Virus record (IMG/VR): IMGVR_UViG_3300029286_000115
Location: 1-38,934 of that record
Strand: one strand, 5' to 3'
Length of the DNA stretch: 38,934 bases
Source: a virus
The position numbers and the translations under genes were made by a program. Position 1 is the first letter of the stretch. Each line of letters opens with the position of its first letter. This document shows positions 5,004-28,838 of the stretch, piece by piece. Under the pieces are notes generated by a model. It was not told where the DNA came from. It was given only the letters and a program-made list of their open reading frames with translations, and searched no databases.

Positions 5004-6482
5004 TTATTTTATATTTTTTAATATGTGGGAAATGACCTCGCAATTAAATGCGTTCCCTAAACATTTGTATCTCTGCGAATTGCTAATTGATTTTATATTT
5101 TCCTTTTTCAAATCCAATAATTCCACTTCTAAACAATTCCCCAGCAATTCTTTCAAGTTCGCTATGTAATAATGCGTGTTTTGATTTTGAGCAGAGAAAT
5201 AGATTTTTAATTCTGTTATCAGTTTTGTTAAGATTAACGTGATGGACGATTTCAAATCTTGATAATTTTCTCCCAAGATGTTTTTCCATAATATCTCGGT
5301 GTTCATCTCGGTTAACAACGCCTCGTTTATATCCGTATCTTGTAAGAGTTCTTTTTGTTTTTTCTCTAATTTTATCTGTATATTGTGGGTCTTTGTGTCT
5401 TTGCCAATTTTGATAATGTTTATTACACAATCCCCTTGCGATTGATTTTCTATCGCAATAATTACATTTTTTAACAACTCTTTTTGGCAAATTAAAAGAT
5501 TGATATCTTTTATATCTTTTATAGTGTTTGAGGCAAGCACCAATCTTTGTGGCTGATAATCTTTCGCAATTTTTAACACAACATTTTTGTTCCATACCTT
5601 AACATTACCAAATAACTTATCCAATGTCAATGTATCCGTATAAAATGCTGTGTAATTGTCCGGCAAGCATTGCAACCTCTCGCACTCCACCGGCGTTAAT
5701 TTCCTCACTTCGTCTTTGTCAAAAATCTTTATCTTTGACTGCGTGCCGTTTGAAGGAAGCGTGGCCATTTTGTTGTTTGTAAAATATACCCTCTGATCCT
5801 GTGAATTGTGTCCTTTGCCGTTTATATCCATTTGGATATATCCTTTGTTTATCATTTGGCCGTTGGCTTTTAAAAAATAATCTCTGGCGTTTTTCTTGTA
5901 ATAGGTGCTTGTCAAACAATATGCTTTTAAATCTGTTGTGCTTCCGTCCTCCAAAATATCTTTTAGTAAAATACCTTTGTCGTCAGGCAATTTGACGCCC
6001 GGTATGTTTGTCCAAAAATATCTTTTACGGTTTTGGGCTGACACTAACGCCGCATTTATCATTATCGGTTCAACCCCCAGCGTCTTTGAAATTGTGTCTT
6101 TGGCTTCCTTTGGCATACTGGCCACGTTTTCCAACACGAAATACTTTGGTTTGATTACTTGCAAAATTTTCACATACTCCCAGAATAGGCCACTACGCCC
6201 CCCCCCTAACCCTTCCCGATTGTGTTTTGCGATTGATAAATCTTGGCAAGGGCTTCCACCTATAAGCAAATCAATTCCGTTGCCAAAACTCTCATTCAAG
6301 TCAAACCTCTCGTTTATTGTTTTAATGTCGCCCAACTGCACGGTTTCCGGGTAATTTCTTTGTGCAATAGCGATTGCCGTTTTATCAATCTCGCTGGCAA
6401 AATATACTGTTACCGTAAGGCCTGCCCTGTCCAAAGCAACCCTCGCGCACGAAATTCCGTCAAATAAAGATAAGATTTTCAT
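5004..6482 (-). CDS. C5-cytosine DNA methyltransferase interrupted by a nested HNH gene
   Basis: This protein transfers a methyl group to C5 of cytosine in DNA, probably to protect phage DNA from restriction. The motifs occur in order: I FDGISCARVALDRAG (7-21), IV SPCQDLS with catalytic C79, VI ENV (118-120), VIII QNRKRYFW (150-157), IX RKLTPVECERLQCLPDNY (260-277) and X SNSQRYKCLGNAF (about 467-479). At 492 residues it is about 180 longer than comparable phage enzymes, and the excess lies between IX and X. That segment (about 285-466) is Lys/Ile/Asn-rich, matches no methylase region and coincides with the HNH ORF read in another frame. The start overlaps the upstream stop as ATGA. Whether the long product is active is unknown. 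Confidence 0.88.
   Translation of the reverse strand: MKILSLFDGISCARVALDRAGLTVTVYFASEIDKTAIAIAQRNYPETVQLGDIKTINERFDLNESFGNGIDLLIGGSPCQDLSIAKHNREGLGGGRSGLFWEYVKILQVIKPKYFVLENVASMPKEAKDTISKTLGVEPIMINAALVSAQNRKRYFWTNIPGVKLPDDKGILLKDILEDGSTTDLKAYCLTSTYYKKNARDYFLKANGQMINKGYIQMDINGKGHNSQDQRVYFTNNKMATLPSNGTQSKIKIFDKDEVRKLTPVECERLQCLPDNYTAFYTDTLTLDKLFGNVKVWNKNVVLKIAKDYQPQRLVLASNTIKDIKDINLLICQKELLKNVIIAIENQSQGDCVINIIKIGKDTKTHNIQIKLEKKQKELLQDTDINEALLTEMNTEILWKNILGENYQDLKSSITLILTKLITELKIYFSAQNQNTHYYIANLKELLGNCLEVELLDLKKENIKSISNSQRYKCLGNAFNCEVISHILKNIK
5083..5595 (-). CDS. HNH homing-type endonuclease nested in the cytosine methyltransferase gene
   Basis: This 170-residue protein lies in a different frame from the methyltransferase that contains it. 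Its N-terminal half has paired Cys/His zinc-finger-like motifs (CCVKNC, CLKHY, CNYCDR, CNKHY). The C-terminal half is a typical phage HNH domain: GRKLSRFEIVHHVNLNKTDNRIKNLFL, then SKHALLHSELER. Such proteins nick or cut DNA and promote their own spread by gene conversion. The stop falls where methyltransferase motif X resumes, so the gene looks like a compact insertion. Unusually, the host frame stays open through the whole insert. Confidence 0.85.
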   Translation of the reverse strand: MEQKCCVKNCERLSATKIGACLKHYKRYKRYQSFNLPKRVVKKCNYCDRKSIARGLCNKHYQNWQRHKDPQYTDKIREKTKRTLTRYGYKRGVVNRDEHRDIMEKHLGRKLSRFEIVHHVNLNKTDNRIKNLFLCSKSKHALLHSELERIAGELFRSGIIGFEKGKYKIN

Positions 6483-13470: not shown

Positions 13471-15459
13471 TTATCTTTTAGAAGGAAGCCGGTATTTGAA
13501 TTGGTAATTTTTAAAAACTTGCTCTTTTATTTTTGCTTTTTGTTCAGTTAGATATTCTTTCTTTTTGTCGCCTTCCAAAGATTTGTATTTTTCAGAATTT
13601 ATCAAATCGTTCACTCTTTTATTATATGAAGTGTTGGCGTCTTTAAATCTTTGTTCGCCCACTCTGTCCTTGAATTGTTGCAACTCTTTTCCAATATCAA
13701 CATTCCAATCGTCCTCAAAAGAATATGTATTTGTTGAAATTCCTAAACCGTCTGCGATCAAGGCCAAAAGTAATCCGGCAGACCTATCGTTTGTTGCCGC
13801 CTCATACGCGGTTGAAGCAATCATTGGCACAGTTAGATTTTTTAGTTCCCCTAAAATGGTAGGTTTCCTACCCATAAAATCTTTTTGGTTTACTAAATCT
13901 TTTATAACCGTGAATATAGGAGAAAATTTGTTTTCTGTGAAATTCCAAAGTGCCTCCATTCCACTTTGAGAACCGTAACCTTCACCGAAACGGCTAATCG
14001 TTCCACCTGTTGAGCTTTTAGAGGATTGTCGCGCAATTCTAAAAGCGAGAGTAACCAAAGGCGATAATCCTCCTGTAATATCAAAGCGAGTGTCCCCTAT
14101 TCTTATCTTTCCAAAATTTGAGCTACGAGGGTCAAATTCAACACTGTCTGGGTCAATAGCTTTTGCAATGCTCAAAATAACCCCTATCGTTGAAGCAGTC
14201 ATTAAAAGATTTGTGGCCGCTTGCTTTCTGGCAAAGGCAGACATATCAGAGCCAGCGTGCAAAGTTAAAAAATCTAAATTTGATTTGAAAAATTTTGCAG
14301 AGAAAAACGCTTTGTTTAAAACTTTTCCTATATTTTCGTTTCTGCCTAAACTTCCCCTTCCTGTTAAAGAGTTGGTCAATTCGTTTATACTCCCGACCTC
14401 TCTTTTATCGGCCAAATCTACGCCGGTTTTTTCAGCTAATTTATAAAGTTGATCGGCAATGTCTGCTCTTAATCTCATTGCTCCCAATTCATAGGCAACT
14501 TCCGAAGCCCTAAAAACTCTACCAAAAATAGGTATCTTTGAAGGTTGAGATGTTGGAAATGCCTCCTCACCGGTTGTTAAATCTAATTTTTTGCCTAATT
14601 GGTATCGTCCGTTGCGATAATTCTCTCTTGAATAAATGTTGGCTTTTGTAGCGTCCACAAGAGCGTCGGCAGATTTGTTACCTCCCTTTAAAACAGTCCC
14701 AATATCAATGAAAGATTTTAAGAAATTTCTCGCCCAAATTTTTGAGTATTTTGGATTGAATAAAACTTTAATTCCCTGCCTTCCCCAAAAAGAGTTGTCC
14801 CAAGACGCTTTTAAAGCTCTTGAATTTTCAGCAATAAAATTGGCGGAAATTCTGGCGTTTTCTAACGTTCCAATCAATTTTTCTTTAATACCTTGTTCTT
14901 TAAAAATGTTTATCAGTGGACGCTTGTTGGCTTCTAATTTTAAAGCTCCGATATAATTTTCCAAAGCAACTTTGGCCACACCGTCGTCAATTGATTTGTC
15001 TGTTAAATTTTCACCGACTTTATCTTTGGCTTCTTTTAAGTTTTGAGCCAGCTCTGTAATTGTCTGTGCCTCGTCCAAAGAAACTTCTGTTTTATATTTT
15101 TTTGAGTATGTATCGGCTGTAATCTCGTTTAAAAAATTCTCATTCTCTTTTGGATCGTATAATCTTTTATTTTTATCAGCAAACGTCTGCTTTATTTTTT
15201 CCAACGTTTTTGCTTTGTCTGCTTTTGACATTCCGGTAATTTCTCTCGCCCAGTCATACATTGCCTTCTCTTGATTTTTAAGTAATAATTTCTGCTCAAA
15301 CAAAAGGTTCACTGGTTGGGCGTTTTCTTTACCAATAATGGTTTCCAAAAAATCCCTTCTCTGTTGAGAGGTCATATCATTCAGTTTTTCTGGGCTTAAA
15401 GTTCCTCTTCTTATGGCTTCTTTAAGTTGTTCAACAAATTTTCCTGTTAAGCAAAACAT
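13471..15459 (-). CDS. Internal virion protein, 662 aa
   Basis: The N-terminus (CLTGKFVEQLKEAIRRG, MTSQQRRDFLE, LFEQKLLLKNQ) resembles a recurrent phage protein type that precedes long helical regions. Residues about 60-420 are helical and Lys/Glu-rich. Hydrophobic patches follow (NLLMTASTIGVILSIAKAI, FDITGGLSPLVTLAFRIA, and ILGELKNLTVPMIASTAYEAAT to about 590), with a charged C-terminus. The size, the alternating helical/hydrophobic make-up and the position after the polyvalent protein suggest an ejected internal protein that helps move DNA across the host envelope. No enzymatic motif is recognised. The start is in the CTATG context, and a terminator follows. Confidence 0.65.
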   Translation of the reverse strand: MFCLTGKFVEQLKEAIRRGTLSPEKLNDMTSQQRRDFLETIIGKENAQPVNLLFEQKLLLKNQEKAMYDWAREITGMSKADKAKTLEKIKQTFADKNKRLYDPKENENFLNEITADTYSKKYKTEVSLDEAQTITELAQNLKEAKDKVGENLTDKSIDDGVAKVALENYIGALKLEANKRPLINIFKEQGIKEKLIGTLENARISANFIAENSRALKASWDNSFWGRQGIKVLFNPKYSKIWARNFLKSFIDIGTVLKGGNKSADALVDATKANIYSRENYRNGRYQLGKKLDLTTGEEAFPTSQPSKIPIFGRVFRASEVAYELGAMRLRADIADQLYKLAEKTGVDLADKREVGSINELTNSLTGRGSLGRNENIGKVLNKAFFSAKFFKSNLDFLTLHAGSDMSAFARKQAATNLLMTASTIGVILSIAKAIDPDSVEFDPRSSNFGKIRIGDTRFDITGGLSPLVTLAFRIARQSSKSSTGGTISRFGEGYGSQSGMEALWNFTENKFSPIFTVIKDLVNQKDFMGRKPTILGELKNLTVPMIASTAYEAATNDRSAGLLLALIADGLGISTNTYSFEDDWNVDIGKELQQFKDRVGEQRFKDANTSYNKRVNDLINSEKYKSLEGDKKKEYLTEQKAKIKEQVFKNYQFKYRLPSKR

Positions 15460-15539
15460 AGGGATAAAATAACCATAATTGCAATCAAAGGCAATATGTA
15501 GTCATATTCCTCGTATTTTGTAATTTGGCTGGTTAGCAT
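15447..15539 (-). CDS. 30-aa membrane peptide bridging two virion genes
   Basis: The ATG at 15537-15539 overlaps the end of the 1315-residue gene, and the stop (15447-15449) overlaps the start of the 662-residue gene. The product (MLTSQITKYEEYDY followed by ILPLIAIMVILSLCFA) has one C-terminal hydrophobic helix. Filling the gap with overlaps at both ends supports a real, translationally coupled gene. The function is unknown. Confidence 0.5.
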   Translation of the reverse strand: MLTSQITKYEEYDYILPLIAIMVILSLCFA

Positions 15540-18500
15540 TTTATTTCTTCCAAAAACTTTTCCCACGACGCCTTTGTAGGTTTTTGGCTTTTAATTTTTT
15601 CCGTTAGACCTTTTTTTATTTCGCTTTCAACTTGTGTTTTATTTCTACCTCGCAATTTTTTTTCTGCAACGGTTTCTCTCTCTTTTGCTATCTCTCTTAT
15701 TTTTGCTGTGGCACTATCCGGTTCTCTTTCTGCGGCCAACCTCATTGTCTGCCCAGATTTTGATATTTCAGTTACCAAAGGCGAATTTGCAAGTTGTTGC
15801 GCGAGTTGACCGTTCCTTGTTTCCATAGCATAATCCTCTAACGCCTTTACAACTGCCGCACCCTTTAAACCCTCTGGCAATGCTTCTTGACCTAACGCAA
15901 TTCTTTTTGCTCGTTCAATATCTTTACTCATTATATCAGAAATCATTTTGGCTTGCTCTTTTATAACAATCGGCGTATATTCTGCTAAATCGGAAAACCC
16001 TTTGGATAATCCTTGCTCAATGGCCTTTGCCTCAATAGATTTTGCCACTCCTGACACTCTGCCCACTTCTTTGCCTTCCGGCTCGGTGGCGACCCCTTTC
16101 TGTGCTTCTATGGTTGGTTTAGCAACTGGTTCACTCTTGATAGGGATATTACCATTCAAGATTTGATAAGTTTTACCAATTTTTCCACCTGCATATTCAT
16201 TAAAAGCAATCCCACGCATTTTACTTTGGTCAACTACTTTTTGCACGAGTTCTGGGTATTGAGAAACAGAAGCAAAATCTGCTTTTCCTTGTGGAAACAT
16301 CAAATCAAAATCCTCTTTACTAAATTTTATTTTTTCTCCGTCAAAAGTCGTGTATTCTTTTCCGATTTCATTTTTAAATAAATCAATACCTATTTTCTCG
16401 GTTAAATCAACAACTTGTTTTTTTATTTCCGCACCTATTTCGTAAACCTTTCCATTAAAAGCAAAAACATTTGCCACATCTTTATTGTCTGTCAAAAATA
16501 TCCCTCCACTATCTTTTCCTTTTTTCATTCCGTATGTTAGCTCCTTTCCCTTAATTTCTTGTGGAGTTCCGTGATATAAAGTTTTTGTTTGAGTAGGTTC
16601 GGTTATTTTTTGAGTAGGTTGCTTTTTTATTTTTGCAAATCTTGGCTGTTTTTTCAGTGGCAACTTATATTTTTCAATTGATTTTTTAAATTTATCAACT
16701 CCAATATCGTCAATTACAAATTTTGCTTTGGCAATTACCCCCTCCTTGCTTCTGCTATCGGCAATATATCGTCCAGTTGACGCTTCGCTAACAATCCAAC
16801 CTCCGTCGCCTTCGTGTAAAAAGGTTTCTACGCCTTTGACAATTTCAACCGGAGTTCCTTCAACCATTTTAATTTTGCCACCTTCGTGAATCGTTGGATA
16901 TTTTTTTGACGCCTCCTCAACACGAGGTTTAATAAATTCCTCAACTGCTTTTTCCGATTTTTCAATTGCGATTGCTTGTCGTCCGGCTTTAACTGCTTCT
17001 GCTGGGACAACCCCAGAGCCGGCAAACGGATCAAGCACCACGTCGCCCTCTTTGGTTGACATCTCAACCATTTTACGAGCCATTTCAGCCGGCTTCTCGG
17101 TTTGATAGCCCTTTGGTCGTATAAGTTTAAAATTCAAATCTGGGTTTTTGAAATCAGCACTTCCCGATTTTGTAAATAAAATAATTCCTTCTGGGTAATC
17201 GGGAGTTCCACGCATATTTCTTGTCCTTGTTACTCCGTCTTTCTGCAATTTTGTATATTCCCCTCTGGCTACTGGTTTAAATCCGGCCGAAGTCATAACG
17301 TCTGTATATTTTTGCATTTCCTTAATCCCAGACGGAGCTTGTGAAAACATATAAAAAATAGGGGAGTTGTCGCCTCTTGCAATCTTTTTTACTGCTTCAA
17401 CTACATTTTTAAATTGCTCAACTGTAATAAATTCAAACTTCGCTCCTCTATTTCCACCGGAAACTGCCGGTGTCTTATATGGTATGTCTAAAAACACCAT
17501 ATCAGCTTTTACCCCCTCTTTTGCTAATCGTGGCAAAACGTCCACTGCGTCGCCAGTTTCTACATAGGCAACTTCTTTGCCATTGTTTTTTAAAATATAA
17601 ACTCCTTTGTCAACGCGCTCAAAAGTTCCTTCCTTTGCACCGACGCCTAAAATGCGTCTGACATTCGGTTCAAGTATTTTTGTCTGTTCTGCAATTTGCT
17701 GAATTGTTTTAGTTTCCACTTGAACGGCTTGTTTTACAATTTCTGTTTGTGTTTTTGGTTGTTTGGTTGAAAGTAAAACCTCTTTTTCAACTCCACCAAT
17801 AACATATTTAATATCCTCTGGCTTAACTTTTATTTCTTGTATCGGTTGTTTGTTAGCTTCTGAAAATTGCTCGGCAAAAGATTTGTCGTAGGTCGTAGAA
17901 TACAACTCATTTTTGTTTCCAATTTTTCCCACCCTATAAAGAATAATATCGCCGTTTTCGTCCGGTTTAATATCGCCTTTTGATATTGCTTGTTCAACTG
18001 ATTTTTCTGCAATCTGTTGGCCATTGGCGGTTTTCAATTGCGTGGCTAAATCTCTCAAATAGGCATTTGGTGCTTCTTTTCCGGCCGTAAATCCTCCAAA
18101 AGTTTGATAACCGCGCACAGTTTCTTGTATCTTTTGCATAGTTTCGGCCTCATTTGCATAGAATTTACTCGCCTGTTCCCTTAATTGTTCTGTGGCTTGT
18201 TGATCATTTATGCGCCCAAATTTTAAATCGTCCATAATTGCCCTCGCTTCTGCTCCTGCTCTGTCCTGTTCTGGCGTTGTTTCAATCAAATCAGAAACTT
18301 TTTTAGCGGTGAATTTGTCTAAATCAATGTTTCCAGCGCTTATTTCTTTATCAATCCTTTCTGGCAATTGCTTTTTTACTTCGTCAACTATCTTTTTAAC
18401 CTCCTCTTTTGTAATCTCAATTTTTTTAGCTTCCCTTTCTGCAATTTTTGTCATAATCATTCCATTAGCCATATTAAAAGCCGTGCTAAAAGGTTGCATT

Positions 18501-19480
18501 GCAATTCCAGCTCCGACTTTGGCGGTGGTTTCAATTCCTTGCTTTGCTTCTTTGGAAATTGGTAATTTTTCAACAATTTTTGAACCTCCTGTTTCTATTA
18601 CAGAGTGAACCATTTTAATACCGACAAGTTGTGCTACAAAAGCACCCAATTCCTCTGCAAGAGGTCTGATCGTATCTTTAACTTCTTTTGAAACAGGCAA
18701 AAAATCAACACCTTTATCGGAAGTCCAAACTCCGGCCTTACCTAATTGCTGAAATCCCCAATCAATACCTTTGGCTGGCAAAGATAAAACTCCCGGTAAT
18801 TCTTTTGCCGCACTCAATTCAGCCATAACCTTTGCAAAAGCCAAACTCCCAATTTTTAGAGAACCTTCGCCCAATAAAACAAATTTTTGCAAATTAGAAA
18901 GCTCTTTTGATTTTAAATAATCTTTCTGGGCTTGAACCTCTTTTAAATAATTTGGATTTTCCGTTCCGTCTGAATTATATTTTGACCAACCGGGTTGTGT
19001 ATCATAATCAGATAATTTTGTTCCGGCAGAAGCGTCTATGATTTGACCCAACCCTTCTGCCGCACTTGTTATACTGCCTTTGGCGCTTTCGTAACCGGAT
19101 TTTACAACTTTTCTTAACCAATCAAAACCTTTTGGTAATTGACCTTCATTTAAAATAACATCAATAACTGCTCCGGCTTTGTCGGCATAAGTAGTTGTTG
19201 GAGTTTTAATCGCCAAATCCAAATCTGTTTTAAAATCTTGTTTCTCATTTCCTGTTGGAGCTTTTATCTCACCGCCTCCGACAGTTACGGTTTTCGTTAC
19301 AAATTGACCGTTTTCCATTACGCCTTGTTGGTATGTTTTAGGCACATTGGTTTTAGGTTGAGTTTGTATCTGGGACTTTATAGGTAAAAACTTATTCAAA
19401 TCAATTGAATTTTTTTTTGCATTGCCAGAGCTATCCTCTGCATTTTGCGAAGGTAGAAATTTGCTGAAATCAATTGACAT
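15533..19480 (-). CDS. Polyvalent internal virion protein with ART-like domains and a DNA methyltransferase domain
   Basis: This 1315-residue protein is probably packaged and injected with the DNA. Residues 1-95 are low-complexity with two copies of S/N-IDxxKFLP. Residues 100-400 are helical with hydrophobic patches. About 512-573 (LYRVG, then LYSTTYDKSFAEQF) look like a compact ADP-ribosyltransferase-type fold. About 585-630 look like a winged helix (IQQIAEQTKILEPNVRRILG). About 636-855 are an N4/N6-type DNA methyltransferase: LDIPY (664-668, for DPPY), EKPAEMARKM, and VLDPFAGSG (815-823). About 965-1115 form a second ART-like domain (LYHGTP, GGIFLTDNKDVANVFA). The remainder is helical. Such mosaics match the known class of phage polyvalent proteins that act on the host immediately after entry. 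Enzymatic activity is inferred. Confidence 0.72.
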   Translation of the reverse strand: MSIDFSKFLPSQNAEDSSGNAKKNSIDLNKFLPIKSQIQTQPKTNVPKTYQQGVMENGQFVTKTVTVGGGEIKAPTGNEKQDFKTDLDLAIKTPTTTYADKAGAVIDVILNEGQLPKGFDWLRKVVKSGYESAKGSITSAAEGLGQIIDASAGTKLSDYDTQPGWSKYNSDGTENPNYLKEVQAQKDYLKSKELSNLQKFVLLGEGSLKIGSLAFAKVMAELSAAKELPGVLSLPAKGIDWGFQQLGKAGVWTSDKGVDFLPVSKEVKDTIRPLAEELGAFVAQLVGIKMVHSVIETGGSKIVEKLPISKEAKQGIETTAKVGAGIAMQPFSTAFNMANGMIMTKIAEREAKKIEITKEEVKKIVDEVKKQLPERIDKEISAGNIDLDKFTAKKVSDLIETTPEQDRAGAEARAIMDDLKFGRINDQQATEQLREQASKFYANEAETMQKIQETVRGYQTFGGFTAGKEAPNAYLRDLATQLKTANGQQIAEKSVEQAISKGDIKPDENGDIILYRVGKIGNKNELYSTTYDKSFAEQFSEANKQPIQEIKVKPEDIKYVIGGVEKEVLLSTKQPKTQTEIVKQAVQVETKTIQQIAEQTKILEPNVRRILGVGAKEGTFERVDKGVYILKNNGKEVAYVETGDAVDVLPRLAKEGVKADMVFLDIPYKTPAVSGGNRGAKFEFITVEQFKNVVEAVKKIARGDNSPIFYMFSQAPSGIKEMQKYTDVMTSAGFKPVARGEYTKLQKDGVTRTRNMRGTPDYPEGIILFTKSGSADFKNPDLNFKLIRPKGYQTEKPAEMARKMVEMSTKEGDVVLDPFAGSGVVPAEAVKAGRQAIAIEKSEKAVEEFIKPRVEEASKKYPTIHEGGKIKMVEGTPVEIVKGVETFLHEGDGGWIVSEASTGRYIADSRSKEGVIAKAKFVIDDIGVDKFKKSIEKYKLPLKKQPRFAKIKKQPTQKITEPTQTKTLYHGTPQEIKGKELTYGMKKGKDSGGIFLTDNKDVANVFAFNGKVYEIGAEIKKQVVDLTEKIGIDLFKNEIGKEYTTFDGEKIKFSKEDFDLMFPQGKADFASVSQYPELVQKVVDQSKMRGIAFNEYAGGKIGKTYQILNGNIPIKSEPVAKPTIEAQKGVATEPEGKEVGRVSGVAKSIEAKAIEQGLSKGFSDLAEYTPIVIKEQAKMISDIMSKDIERAKRIALGQEALPEGLKGAAVVKALEDYAMETRNGQLAQQLANSPLVTEISKSGQTMRLAAEREPDSATAKIREIAKERETVAEKKLRGRNKTQVESEIKKGLTEKIKSQKPTKASWEKFLEEIKC

Positions 19481-19488
19481 TTTGTTTA

Positions 19489-21075
19489 TTATTCTGCTTT
19501 ATAATACTTTGATTTGTTCAAAATAATATCCAGTAAAGTTTCGTCTGTCCCAACAATCCCTCCGGCATTTAAGATTTCGTCTGACGATAATTTTCTAACT
19601 AAATCTGGGTTTGTCCTTCCATAAATTCCAGCCAAAGTATAGTATGCAGAAGCCCACGATCCGCCTTCGGCAAGATTAGAAATCTGTTTTGAAATGTCGT
19701 CATTAAATTTCTTTTCCTCTGATGTCATATCGTTTTCTGTGGTGCTGGTTTTTTTAGCAGTTCCCAATCTTATATTATTTGTTTTTATCTCGCCAGTAGT
19801 AGGGTCTTTTGTCAATACGCTTGCATATTCTGTATTATCAGAGGAAGTCCAATTGTAAGTAGCAACAATTTCTGCTTTTGGATTTTTATTTTGCAATGTC
19901 TGATAAAAACCGATAGGCAAACCAGATTGTGCCTCTAATTTTGTAACCATAACTTTTTGGTCGTCTGTCAAGTCGCTTATATTCTGCCCTCCGTTAGTAA
20001 TTGAATTATAAACAATTTGCAAAGACGAACGTGCGTCGTCAACGGCTTTTTCCTCGTCTGATTTCTGATCCTCTGAAACTCCCTTTAAGATATTAAACAT
20101 TGAGATATTATTCGTCATTTGCTGGTTGTAACTTTGAGAGGCATTGTCGTAATCTTTTTCAGTCAAGTTCATTAACGTATTCACAACATTATATTTTGTT
20201 GTCAACTGGTCTGAAATTGATTTTATTTGAGTTTGGACTTCCGCCAAAGCGTCATTGGCTTGCTGTGCTTCCTCTGAAATTCTGCCTTCAATAACGTTCA
20301 TTGCAACGGTCTTTCCTTTTTCTTTTGTCGCCAGTGCTTTTTGGTCTGCTAAAATTTGTGCCTGCTTTGAGGACAAATCATTTAAAGAAGTTTCCAAAGT
20401 ATCAATACCATATTGGGTTCTGTAATTTTGATAAGTTGAAACTAAATTTGGAGCTTCCGGCTTTGCTGTTTCTGGCGTAATAGCAGATTTTGCGTTTTCT
20501 GCGGCAGATTTTGTTATGTCAACTTTATCTGTGCCTAAAATTTCGGCTAAAACGTCATTTGTAGTTTTTCTTGTTGGTGGTTCAGAAGTAGTGGTGGCAG
20601 ACGCCTTATCTGCTTGTTGGTTTTCGTTTATAGCTTTATTCGCTTCTGCCATTGAATTGACAGTTGAATAATCTGTCTGTCCTGCTCCAAAACCAGAGTT
20701 TTGAGGTATGTTCAATGTTTGCCCAGAATAAATTAAATTAGGATTTTTGATATTTGGGTTTAACCTCATTAACTCTGAAATGCTTGTGCCTTGCGCTTTG
20801 GCAATAGCCGAAAGCGTGTCGCCGGATTTTATATTATAAGCGGCCGAGCCTGTTGCTCCGGCTGGCGCTGGTGTCGGCGAAGGTGTTGGAGTTGGTGTTG
20901 CCGGTGCAGGCGAGGACACTGGCACGGTTGGTAAATTAAGGGACGCCCCAGCTATAATTAAGTTAGGGTTTGTGATATTAGGATTGGCTCTCAATAATGC
21001 GTCAACGGTTGTGCCGTTGGATTTTGCCAACCCGGACAAAGTGTCCCCAGATTTTATTTTAATTGTTGTAGGCAT
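19489..21075 (-). CDS. Virion-associated LysM protein, 528 aa
   Basis: There are two LysM repeats, at residues about 3-49 ([20 protein letters not shown]) and about 80-126 ([20 protein letters not shown]), each ending in the NPNLI-x-G-x-xLN(L/I)P pattern. They are joined by a Pro/Ala/Thr-rich linker. LysM binds N-acetylglucosamine polymers such as peptidoglycan. The remaining 400 residues are Asn/Gln/Thr-rich and helical with coiled-coil stretches (about 230-330) and no recognised catalytic domain. The gene lies between the tail proteins and the internal virion proteins, so a structural or DNA-delivery component that grips the cell wall is likely; alternatively a catalytic domain is too diverged to see. 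Confidence 0.75.
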
Positions 21076-25238: not shown

Positions 25239-28200
25239 TTAGTTGTCATTTCTACTTATTTTTTTCCACACTCCGTTGGTTACTCTGGCGACCTTTTTCC
25301 AAAGCCCAACTTGTATGCCGTTTAATACAAATTTTGTTTTATCCCAGCGAGCAATCACTCTCTGCGTAAAAATCCTGCCGGTTAATTTTGCAATTAAAGG
25401 ATTGATAACATTCAAAACTTCTGTGAAAATCCTGCCTGTCTGGTATGTTGATCGTCCGACTATAATCATAAACTCTGTCAAAATCCTCGTCATTGCCACG
25501 TTGAATTTGAAAGCAACCGCGACCACTTCAATAAGAACCTTTGAGATAGTCCCCAAAATAAATGTTCCGGTTACGTTGACGACTTCTGTAAATATCTTGC
25601 CTGCTTGATTAAAGGCATTGCCGGCGACCCCCACAATCTCTGTAAAAGTTCTGCTCAATTCCCAAACTTTTGTATATTCTGCAACAATGTTGACTGTTTC
25701 CAATAAGAGTTTTGAAATCGTCCCAAGCACAAACTCCCCAACGACTGCAATTGTTTCAACAAAGATTTTTATGTTTTGGTTTACTAAATTTACGGACACA
25801 CTGACTACTTCTGAAAACACTCTGGCCGGCAGAGATTTGTTGACCTTCTCAACGATATTTATTGTTTCAGTTAAGAGTTTTGAAATCGTGCCTAAAACAA
25901 ACGTGCTGACAACCTCAATTGTTTCTGTAAAAGTTTTCCCAGCTTGATTGAAAGCGTTACCGGTAACTGCCAGCATTTCTGAAAGCACCCTGCTTAAAGT
26001 CCACGCCTTTGAATAATCCGGCATTACAATAACTCTTTGGACGATAACCTTGCCAATAGCCCAGCTTCCAAGAGCTGAAACGGCCGCAATAGCTTCTGCA
26101 AACGTCTTGCCTGCCATTTTATAGGCCTGCCCTGCGAATTTTACGCTGTCGGCGAGTATTCTATGCTGTGTCTTTTTAAACAGTGTTGTAGCCCCTGCTA
26201 CGACGCGCTGGCTGAATACTCTGGCCATAGCGTTGCCTGCCATTGCTCCAATTGCATTGATAACTTCTGAAAATATCTTTGCCGTTTGTAAAACCATATT
26301 TGAGGCAACCTGTATTGTTTCTGTGAAAATGGTGTTTCTGCCTTCATTAAAAATTAAATGCACCGGCACAAGCTCCCTTAATAATTTACCGATTGCAAAC
26401 GATCCGAAAGCCAAAACAATTTTTATTGTTTCTGTAAATTCGTATGCCCTTGCGATTAAGAAGTTGACACCCATTGCCACGTTCTCTAAAAATACCCTTG
26501 CCAAAGCGTATGTGAATAATGGCAAAACTCTGATTGTCTGCACAAAAGTTTTGCTGGAAGTTTTTACAAAGCTCACTGTTGCCGTTAAATTTTCAGTGAG
26601 TTCTACAAACTGCGTCTTTGCAAACAACCACGAAGTCGCTCCGGTTAAAACTTCAACAAAAGTTTTTCCGGCTTTTTTCGCCAACAAAGGCGTAACCCTC
26701 AATGTCTGTCTGAATAACCGGCTTATACTTGTTAATTTTGAAAATGAAACACTGACAACTTCTGAAATTGTTTTATAGGCAACCAACCCCATTAAAAGCG
26801 ACGAAACAACCTCAATTGATTGCGTAATAATTTTTGCCCTCATTACTGTCCTTGTGCTGGAAACAATCAATCTGCTCGTGAGTGTAATCATTTGAGCGAA
26901 TATGCCTGTTGGTATAGCAACAACTCTCTCTGTTAAAACTCGTGCCATTGAGAATATGTTTTGTGAAGCGACCACAATGGATTGCGAGAAAGAGCGACCG
27001 ATTGATTTTACTACTGACGACGAAACTGATATTGTTTCGCTGATTATTCTCAAAGCACTTAAAACCCTTGTTGTCGCTGGGCTAATTATATTTATAATTT
27101 CCGTGTATGTTTCTAAAATAACCTTGTAGGACACAAAAACCGAAGCGACCACAATGGATTGCACGAGAGTTTTTGCTGTTGTAAATAAGACCGTTGACGC
27201 AATAGACAATGCGTTCGTAAAAGTTTTATATGTAATTTTAGCAAGGTTTGTTGCTACCGAAACCAAAGACGTTAAAGCCCTTGAAAGAAAAAAGTGAAAT
27301 TCGTCGTTATAAACAGTTACAATCACATCATCTAAATCAAACGAGTTTGCAGAACCTCCTACGAAAATAAGTTGTGTTGATAACGCCGTCCCGACAATTT
27401 CATATCTGCCATTGCCAGACACCTGCCCTTTATTTTGAGTTAGTATGCCGGCTTTAATTCCACACGTCCCAGTTCCCGAAAAACTTTGCACTGTAAAACA
27501 AATTCTGTATCTGCGCCTAACTGTAAATACGTTTTCCTGTTTTAAATCCTCAACCCCTCCGGCAGTCCAGTGAGCCAAGCTATTGCTAAAAGTCCACGGC
27601 GAGTTAAATTCCCAATTGGCTGTTGTGTCAAAGTGTCCATTTAAAATTGTGCTGGGCTTCATATTCACTCCAACCCTTGAAATAAAAGTTTTCGCCGTTG
27701 ATAAAAGTTTTGACGACAGAGCAACAATCCTTGCAGTGAAAGTTTTGCTGGTTAATAAAATCTTTGTTGAAGTAGCAACTACCCTCAAAATAAATGCTCT
27801 TGTTGTTAATTTTAACAAAATATGGTTAGGTATTACTCTTTCTGTCAAAGTTTTTAATGTTATTGCTATTTCTGCACCAATTGTTACCAAAGTATTGTTA
27901 AAAGAATTATAATTTGCTTTAATCCAAGCGGCACTACGGTTTGTATCAGATATTCTCCAATTTTCAATTTTACCATTAAAAGGCATTAGAGTTTCAGCAC
28001 TTTCATAACCACCACAATCTTGTTGAACCGTATTATCCTGCGAAGGTGTATAATTATCACTATCTACTTCTGCCCCGTCTATATACATCTTTTTAGAATT
28101 TCCTGCATAATTTGCTACCAAAACAACGTAATGCCACCCATTTGTGATTGCCGCCTCTAAAGAAACAGTGGTATCGTAGTAAGTATTAAATCTTAATAAA

Positions 28201-28838
28201 CTGTTAAAAATATCCAATCCACCAAACCCACCTTGACCGTAAAATATGTTTTGTGTTTTTGTTGCTTCTGCAACATTGTCTGAATTAACCCAAGCGTCAA
28301 AGGTATAAGCAGACCTTGTCGCAATGGTATTGGTCGTATCTATGTAGTCGTTAGTTCCGTCAAAATCTTGACATTTAGATATTTTACCGTCTGCTTGCGC
28401 CGGTTCTGCGTTCCCCCTTTTTGTTCCGTTGTTTCCCTTTATAGCAATCACAATTGTATCTGAATTATCGTCATTTAATGGTAAAACTGCTGTAAAATTT
28501 GCGTCATAAGCATTTGCCGCGTCTGATCCGTCGGAAGCACCAGAGTTTCCATAATACATATAAAAAACAGTATCAACAGAACCAGATACGCTTGGTATTT
28601 TAACTATATATTCTGCTAAATCATTTGTATCGTCGTGCCTCCTTCTCTCATACTTTAAAAGAGTTGTCCCGTCAGAAGCAGTAAATCTTATATCGTTTCC
28701 GGTAGTTAATGCTTTTGAAAAATCAAAATTTGCTGATGTTAATTTTACTAAAACCGTCAAATCAGTTAAATCTGCATCAATTTTTGTTTGGTCTATCGTT
28801 ATTGATTTTTTATATAACCAACCGTTTAAAAAAGCCAT
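25239..28838 (-). CDS. Giant repeat-rich adhesin: DUF2341, LamG-like, carbohydrate-binding-like and about 35 short repeats
   Basis: In this 1199-residue protein, residues 1-120 match the DUF2341 type (WLYKKSITID, FYMYYGNSGASDGSDA). About 125-325 form a concanavalin/LamG-like lectin (CQDFDGTNDYIDT, AYTFDAWVNS, KMYIDGAEVDS). About 395-510 look like a CBM4/9-like jelly roll (ILNGHFDTTANWEF, SFDLDDVIVTV). The rest is a string of roughly 19-residue repeats of the form (K/R)-x-F-x-E-x-(I/V)-x-V, for example KIFTEVVNVTGTFILGTIS. They begin before the jelly roll and continue to about residue 1170. The lectin modules imply binding to surface glycans, and the repeats probably form a long stalk. The stop is followed at once by the coiled-coil gene. 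Confidence 0.78.
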   Translation of the reverse strand: MAFLNGWLYKKSITIDQTKIDADLTDLTVLVKLTSANFDFSKALTTGNDIRFTASDGTTLLKYERRRHDDTNDLAEYIVKIPSVSGSVDTVFYMYYGNSGASDGSDAANAYDANFTAVLPLNDDNSDTIVIAIKGNNGTKRGNAEPAQADGKISKCQDFDGTNDYIDTTNTIATRSAYTFDAWVNSDNVAEATKTQNIFYGQGGFGGLDIFNSLLRFNTYYDTTVSLEAAITNGWHYVVLVANYAGNSKKMYIDGAEVDSDNYTPSQDNTVQQDCGGYESAETLMPFNGKIENWRISDTNRSAAWIKANYNSFNNTLVTIGAEIAITLKTLTERVIPNHILLKLTTRAFILRVVATSTKILLTSKTFTARIVALSSKLLSTAKTFISRVGVNMKPSTILNGHFDTTANWEFNSPWTFSNSLAHWTAGGVEDLKQENVFTVRRRYRICFTVQSFSGTGTCGIKAGILTQNKGQVSGNGRYEIVGTALSTQLIFVGGSANSFDLDDVIVTVYNDEFHFFLSRALTSLVSVATNLAKITYKTFTNALSIASTVLFTTAKTLVQSIVVASVFVSYKVILETYTEIINIISPATTRVLSALRIISETISVSSSVVKSIGRSFSQSIVVASQNIFSMARVLTERVVAIPTGIFAQMITLTSRLIVSSTRTVMRAKIITQSIEVVSSLLMGLVAYKTISEVVSVSFSKLTSISRLFRQTLRVTPLLAKKAGKTFVEVLTGATSWLFAKTQFVELTENLTATVSFVKTSSKTFVQTIRVLPLFTYALARVFLENVAMGVNFLIARAYEFTETIKIVLAFGSFAIGKLLRELVPVHLIFNEGRNTIFTETIQVASNMVLQTAKIFSEVINAIGAMAGNAMARVFSQRVVAGATTLFKKTQHRILADSVKFAGQAYKMAGKTFAEAIAAVSALGSWAIGKVIVQRVIVMPDYSKAWTLSRVLSEMLAVTGNAFNQAGKTFTETIEVVSTFVLGTISKLLTETINIVEKVNKSLPARVFSEVVSVSVNLVNQNIKIFVETIAVVGEFVLGTISKLLLETVNIVAEYTKVWELSRTFTEIVGVAGNAFNQAGKIFTEVVNVTGTFILGTISKVLIEVVAVAFKFNVAMTRILTEFMIIVGRSTYQTGRIFTEVLNVINPLIAKLTGRIFTQRVIARWDKTKFVLNGIQVGLWKKVARVTNGVWKKISRNDN

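Follow-up and report, generated by a model that had tools for sequence, protein, structure and literature searches.

In the sections available to us of the survey of phage polyvalent proteins by Iyer et al. 2017 (PMC5512222), the DNA methyltransferases (MTases) carried by such proteins are mostly gamma-class enzymes with an NPP(Y/F) motif tied to an SNF2 helicase, with DarB of phage P1 as the archetype. DarB is a packaged anti-restriction MTase-helicase (PMC5512222) and bears an N-terminal capsid-targeting sequence (PMC9024508). Here, we analysed a viral DNA stretch of 38,934 nt (hereafter the window), which corresponds to the entire IMG/VR virus record IMGVR_UViG_3300029286_000115, and within it the open reading frame (ORF) at 15533-19480, which encodes a protein of 1,315 residues, P0001. 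This ORF had been proposed as an injected polyvalent protein, and it is indeed present, with an ATG start, on the minus strand, which the original prediction had not specified; all features of the window given below with coordinates are likewise on that strand. As with the surveyed proteins, P0001 is large, multidomain and encoded in a virion gene block, and its syntenic relatives carry LPD38, LPD1, ART-PolyVal, metallopeptidase motifs and an MTase. Unlike them, it is short, lacks LPD domains and HExxH motifs, and has a beta-class MTase with a winged helix. Proteins of this kind are already known, and the unit of winged helix and beta-class MTase differs from what is typical in the survey text available, although an earlier mention is possible.

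The MTase spans residues 641–862 (16895-17560), close to the 636–855 initially assigned. It matched Pfam N6_N4_Mtase with an E-value of 1.3e-17 (64.9 bits vs a cut-off of 26.7), and the phrog_67 DNA methyltransferase profile covered residues 643–859 (E 2.6e-19). In an AlphaFold2 model, the predicted local distance difference test (pLDDT) values were mostly >85 across the MTase, and its best fold match was M1.HpyAVI (E 9e-12; template-modelling score 0.80 on the target), followed by CcrM and then by a rotifer N4-cytosine enzyme. The motifs occur in the order IV (DIPY, residue 665), X (TEKP, residue 794) and I (DPFAGSG, residue 817), and the position of motif IV ahead of motif I marks the beta class of amino-DNA MTases. 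By profile and fold, the MTase is solid. P0001 shares with the beta-class enzymes M1.HpyAVI, CcrM and RsrI this motif order, the D-x-x-Y pattern, TEKP, DPFAGSG and the fold (E ~1e-11), and it is distinguished from them by the fused winged helix, by DIPY where they have DPPY or SPPY, and by an identity of <20%. The winged helix makes up the first half of what we call the cassette (residues 584–640; 17561-17731), with the MTase as its second half. It was correctly recognized at residues 585–630, as the model displays the helix-helix-helix-hairpin topology at residues ~584–632, and it is strongly conserved and fused ahead of the MTase in all 22 aligned sequences.

Across the cassette alignment, the D and Y of motif IV and the whole of motif I are invariant and TEKP is near-invariant, whereas the middle of motif IV varies between IP, VP, PP, PA and AP. 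DIPY had been suggested to alter base specificity. This was rejected because the middle positions vary throughout the cassette family, which makes DIPY uninformative on the base, and DIPY is in fact the commonest form in that family rather than a private change. The fold matches include N6-adenine and N4-cytosine enzymes alike and thus do not reveal the target base. GANTC, considered as a protected target following the CcrM match, is unlikely because the genome avoids it, with one site in the window vs ~99 expected.

Compared with P1 DarB, P0001 likewise holds an MTase within a giant protein that is probably particle-borne, and an N-terminal signal, shown for DarB, is suspected in P0001. The two MTases nonetheless have no BLAST-detectable relation, the motif order is reversed in P0001, no helicase was found in it by Pfam, and no doubling of the sort described below for P0001 is visible at the N-terminus of DarB. 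An SNF2-type helicase is, however, present in a relative, a 4,311-aa ORF fragment (L071:7850-20782) that combines the cassette with a DarB-like set made up of an Eco57I-type MTase, the helicase and LPD1.

The polyvalent class was assigned from the gene slot, defined as the gene directly following the LysM-protein gene. Relatives were reached via the capsid protein and the cassette alignment, as a search with the whole of P0001 gave one weak IMG/VR MTase match. The LysM protein (19489-21075; two LysM domains, E 2.3e-29) lies upstream of the slot as a conserved neighbour, and since homologues of LysM, tail, capsid and portal proteins share the strand of P0001, the gene sits among late or virion genes in a conserved position. 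In the relatives read, the slot encodes a giant protein of 2,943, 2,400, 2,547, 1,277 or 1,900 aa, and in relative G019 it is split as in the window, into proteins of 1,155 and 756 aa (1,315 and 662 aa in the window). In phage Palmer, the late block encodes an LPD38 protein of 1,678 aa, although the phage gave no detectable homologue of the window LysM protein. Pfam matches in the slot proteins of relatives comprised LPD38, LPD1, a DNA polymerase III beta-clamp and, in two of them, the same MTase, with LPD14, DnaJ and ART-PolyVal below cut-off. Most of these giant proteins carry 'large polyvalent protein' domains, and ADP-ribosyltransferases (ARTs) exceeded the cut-off in relatives G017, G050 and G059. 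The LysM neighbour also accompanies the cassette in L069, L073, L074 and L076, the last being the G015 contig, which had already been counted. Because of this synteny with giant proteins bearing LPD38, LPD1, ART and MTase domains, the sequence-based classification of P0001 as a polyvalent protein of the virion block is well supported, and the protein probably resides in the particle. Two slot proteins illustrate the range of contents. That of G010 (L061:2674-10317, 2,547 aa) contains the beta-clamp over cut-off (E 1.5e-9) plus LPD38, and that of G021 (L054:4914-13745, 2,943 aa) a sub-threshold DnaJ-like stretch, the MTase cassette, LPD1, LPD38 and two HExxH motifs.

The cassette aligned with that of G021 with 74.6% DNA identity over residues 575–859, where the best local alignment ends. 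For the same pair, the MTases are 71% identical and thus above the capsid proteins (57%). G003, the closest relative for which the slot has been sequenced, has a capsid protein 83% identical to that of the window and no MTase. From this confinement of the identity to residues 575–859, the capsid value for that pair and the lack of an MTase in G003, comparison of the sequences indicates that winged helix and MTase form a mobile cassette exchanged between giant proteins. In alignment searches, this cassette turned up in 22 IMG/VR contigs, including some near-duplicates, and in 19 of these it lies within an ORF of >1,000 aa. Small versions occur in L094, L097 (a contig fragment) and L098. In L080 and L081, the cassette is found in 2.7-kaa ORFs on two ~40-kb contigs of one Omnitrophota metagenome-assembled genome, which are probably virus contigs and a possible hint at the hosts.

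P0001 begins with SIDFSKFLP (residues 2–10; 19451-19477), and a second copy, SIDLNKFLP (residues 25–33; 19382-19408), follows 23 residues on, a duplication with p 0.002 against shuffled sequences. The same test was applied to a positional set of 12 proteins encoded by the ORF after a LysM homologue. A doubled motif was significant (p<0.05) in 7 of the 12 vs 4 of 35 control windows from the same proteins, and the combined Fisher p was 2e-10, for a set that overlaps the seven proteins in which the motif had first been spotted by eye. Among the five outside that first look (L069, L073, L074, L018 and L015), L018 alone was significant. Slot proteins with doubled N-termini (L054, L057, L058, L061, L065, L067 and L018) have copies 18–34 residues apart, which are alike within a protein and unlike between phages, as in NYFNIP/NYFKVP, LNSFIQEK/LNNFIAEK and LDNIFAN/LDDIFAN. 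When proteins were instead selected by cassette or slot, which gave a wider set, 13/23 had a doubled motif vs 12/103 other proteins. A second carrier was sought in the window phage with 14 motif copies, the best matches of which fell mostly within the shuffled controls, and none was convincing. A literature search for a doubled packaging motif returned nothing relevant. Given that the first 30 residues of P1 DarB direct its packaging (PMC9024508), a packaging role is plausible for the doubled motif, which we regard as a candidate virion-loading signal. The broader proposal, namely that the giant injected proteins of this phage group are loaded via a doubled N-terminal docking motif with cassettes swapped freely behind it, is tentative, and we would sooner doubt it than adopt it.

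Two ART-like domains had also been claimed. The C-terminal one (LYHGTP, originally 965–1115) is placed here at residues 962–1115, or only to ~1063 in alternative alignments (16136-16597 for the longer version), and as an ART it is doubtful. The active-site His of strand 1 is present (LYHGT, His 970), and the Pfam search returned ART-PolyVal with an E-value of 2.4e-4. This match is nevertheless below cut-off (22.3 bits vs 31.2), as is that of the genome search (26.8 bits), and in the alignments the Tyr of strand 2 is replaced by Phe (GIFLT vs GIYFT or GSYLT in other ARTs). The Asp of strand 5 depends on the alignment, being kept if the strand is EYTTFD and lost if it is YQILNG. The model of this domain, derived from a small family alignment, had a pLDDT of 50. 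Its best PDB matches were ARTs (best E 0.014, none <0.001), and as the alignment behind the model itself includes ARTs, these matches are a hint only. Direct scans for homologues of the domain found none. With respect to ART-PolyVal (PF18760, Tox-ART-HYD2 clade), the domain thus resembles the family in the LYHGT start with its His, the spacing to strand 2 and the polyvalent-protein setting, and departs from it in the sub-threshold score, the Tyr-to-Phe exchange and the uncertain Asp position. With its conserved Tyr lost, it may be weak or inactive.

The N-terminal segment (512–573 in the original prediction; residues 512–575, 17756-17947) gained no backing as an ART. It found no support in Pfam, the PDB or the proteins of relatives, its phage matches were at chance level, and among the best fold matches of a model containing it there were MTases only. 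An R-S-E ART was therefore rejected here, as just the letters R, STT and EKE resemble the pattern. The residue numbers given earlier were accurate throughout (YRVG 515, EKEV 565, DIPY 665, DPFAGSG 817 and YHGT 969). Of the multi-enzyme protein put forward, the MTase alone has a full motif set, the conserved Tyr is missing from the C-terminal ART, and the N-terminal ART is unsupported. With regard to at least two domains of disparate activity, the winged helix and MTase are certain and the ART is sub-threshold.

The genome bears a marked record of restriction. TCGA, GTAC, CATG and CTAG are absent from the window (80, 54, 43 and 27 expected, respectively), as are CCWGG, GCWGC, GGNCC, CTNAG and GTSAC. 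Overall, 9/32 five-base W/S palindromes and 34/64 six-base palindromes are missing, the latter vs 2.2 in simulations, and in several relatives other sets are lacking. Phages are known to use the avoidance of such sites as a strategy (PMC6286503), and its extreme form in the window shows heavy restriction pressure.

We propose that P0001 is a particle-borne polyvalent protein of a podovirus, the winged helix and MTase of which would protect entering phage DNA from restriction, a reading to which we assign about even chances. It is put forward because of the full MTase motifs and fold, the fused winged helix, the slot in the virion block, the exchange of the cassette, the site avoidance and the DarB precedent. 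P0001 would be built into the particle, with the doubled N-terminal motif possibly docking it, and would leave the particle along with the DNA. Once in the cell, the winged helix would hold the MTase on the entering phage DNA. With S-adenosylmethionine as the methyl donor, the MTase would then methylate N6 of adenine or N4 of cytosine in its target sites before they are cut and thereby block restriction by the host. If the ART-like domain is active, it would use nicotinamide adenine dinucleotide to modify a target in the host. From packaging and ejection through methylation and protection to any ART activity, these steps are what we infer from the protein and its setting, as are injection and the modification of host proteins and DNA envisaged originally. 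Three points weigh against this proposal. P0001 contains no detectable LPD domain or HExxH peptidase, the closely related G003 does without the MTase, and the avoided sites are presumably those that no phage enzyme protects well enough, as a genome that avoids sites evidently has MTases that protect them too poorly.

Alternatively, P0001 might be in the particle while its MTase methylates progeny DNA in the producing cell, before or during packaging, which would make injection unnecessary. The gene does lie in the late block, methylation placed ahead of packaging would be just as protective in the next host, and small free-standing winged-helix MTases exist outside giant proteins (L094, L097 and L098). 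This scenario leaves unexplained why the cassette resides in giant virion-block proteins in 19/22 contigs, and for methylation during growth the phage can already draw on a C5-MTase encoded by a separate gene, so we deem it unlikely, if worth keeping in mind. Less probable still is that the domains are relics or mainly structural, in which case P0001 would have its role in the particle or ejection channel and the enzymes would matter little. The C-terminal ART without the conserved Tyr, the unrecognizable N-terminal ART-like segment and the G003 slot without an MTase would fit this notion, whereas an MTase of full length with D, Y and motif I invariant and TEKP near-invariant, and more similar to that of G021 than the capsid proteins are, argues against it. 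Finally, an injected MTase guided by its winged helix to the host chromosome to alter host expression or mark host DNA would be in line with the host modification first proposed and with the fact that winged helices often bind specific DNA sites, but it is very improbable given a site-avoidance record that indicates restriction as the dominant pressure.

As to the remainder of P0001 and its surroundings, residues 34–505 (17966-19381) have no family match and are moderately hydrophobic at ~200–220 and 273–298. The helical C-terminal region (residues 1150–1300; 15581-16033) is common to the 1,155-aa slot protein of G019 (BLAST E 6e-5). Both flanking genes had been assigned in the original prediction. 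The LysM protein upstream was confirmed, whereas the 'internal virion protein' downstream was not, as this 662-aa ORF (13471-15459) had no significant family match in the Pfam and PHROG profile searches. LPD38 was rejected for it (hhalign probability 0.3%), and its N-terminus is related to that of the 756-aa protein after the G019 slot protein. The C5-cytosine DNA methyltransferase (5004-6482, 492 aa; Pfam E 3.8e-45) has a long unlike stretch ahead of its C-terminal motif (SQRYKCLGNAFN). A 1,199-aa protein (25239-28838) contains a long run of degenerate KxFxExVxV-type repeats and is related to repetitive proteins of differing sizes in relatives. Pieces of the terminase gene lie at both ends of the window with 42 residues in common, so the map is probably circular, and no exact terminal repeat was found at these ends. 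The window capsid protein matched PHROG 1357 (E 1.5e-73) and shares 35% identity with its counterpart in the podophages of the Bacillus phage Page group, and by this sequence comparison the window phage is a distant podovirus relative of that group.

If true, the tentative proposal of a doubled docking motif with freely swapped cassettes behind it would mean that polyvalent proteins follow a general rule of loading, and that there is a second, DarB-independent way to methylate phage DNA on entry. The family bears on how polyvalent proteins enter virions and on whether their MTases act on entering DNA, for which it offers a compact cassette of ~285 aa, a candidate signal for loading in residues 1–33, and genomes that clearly record restriction pressure.

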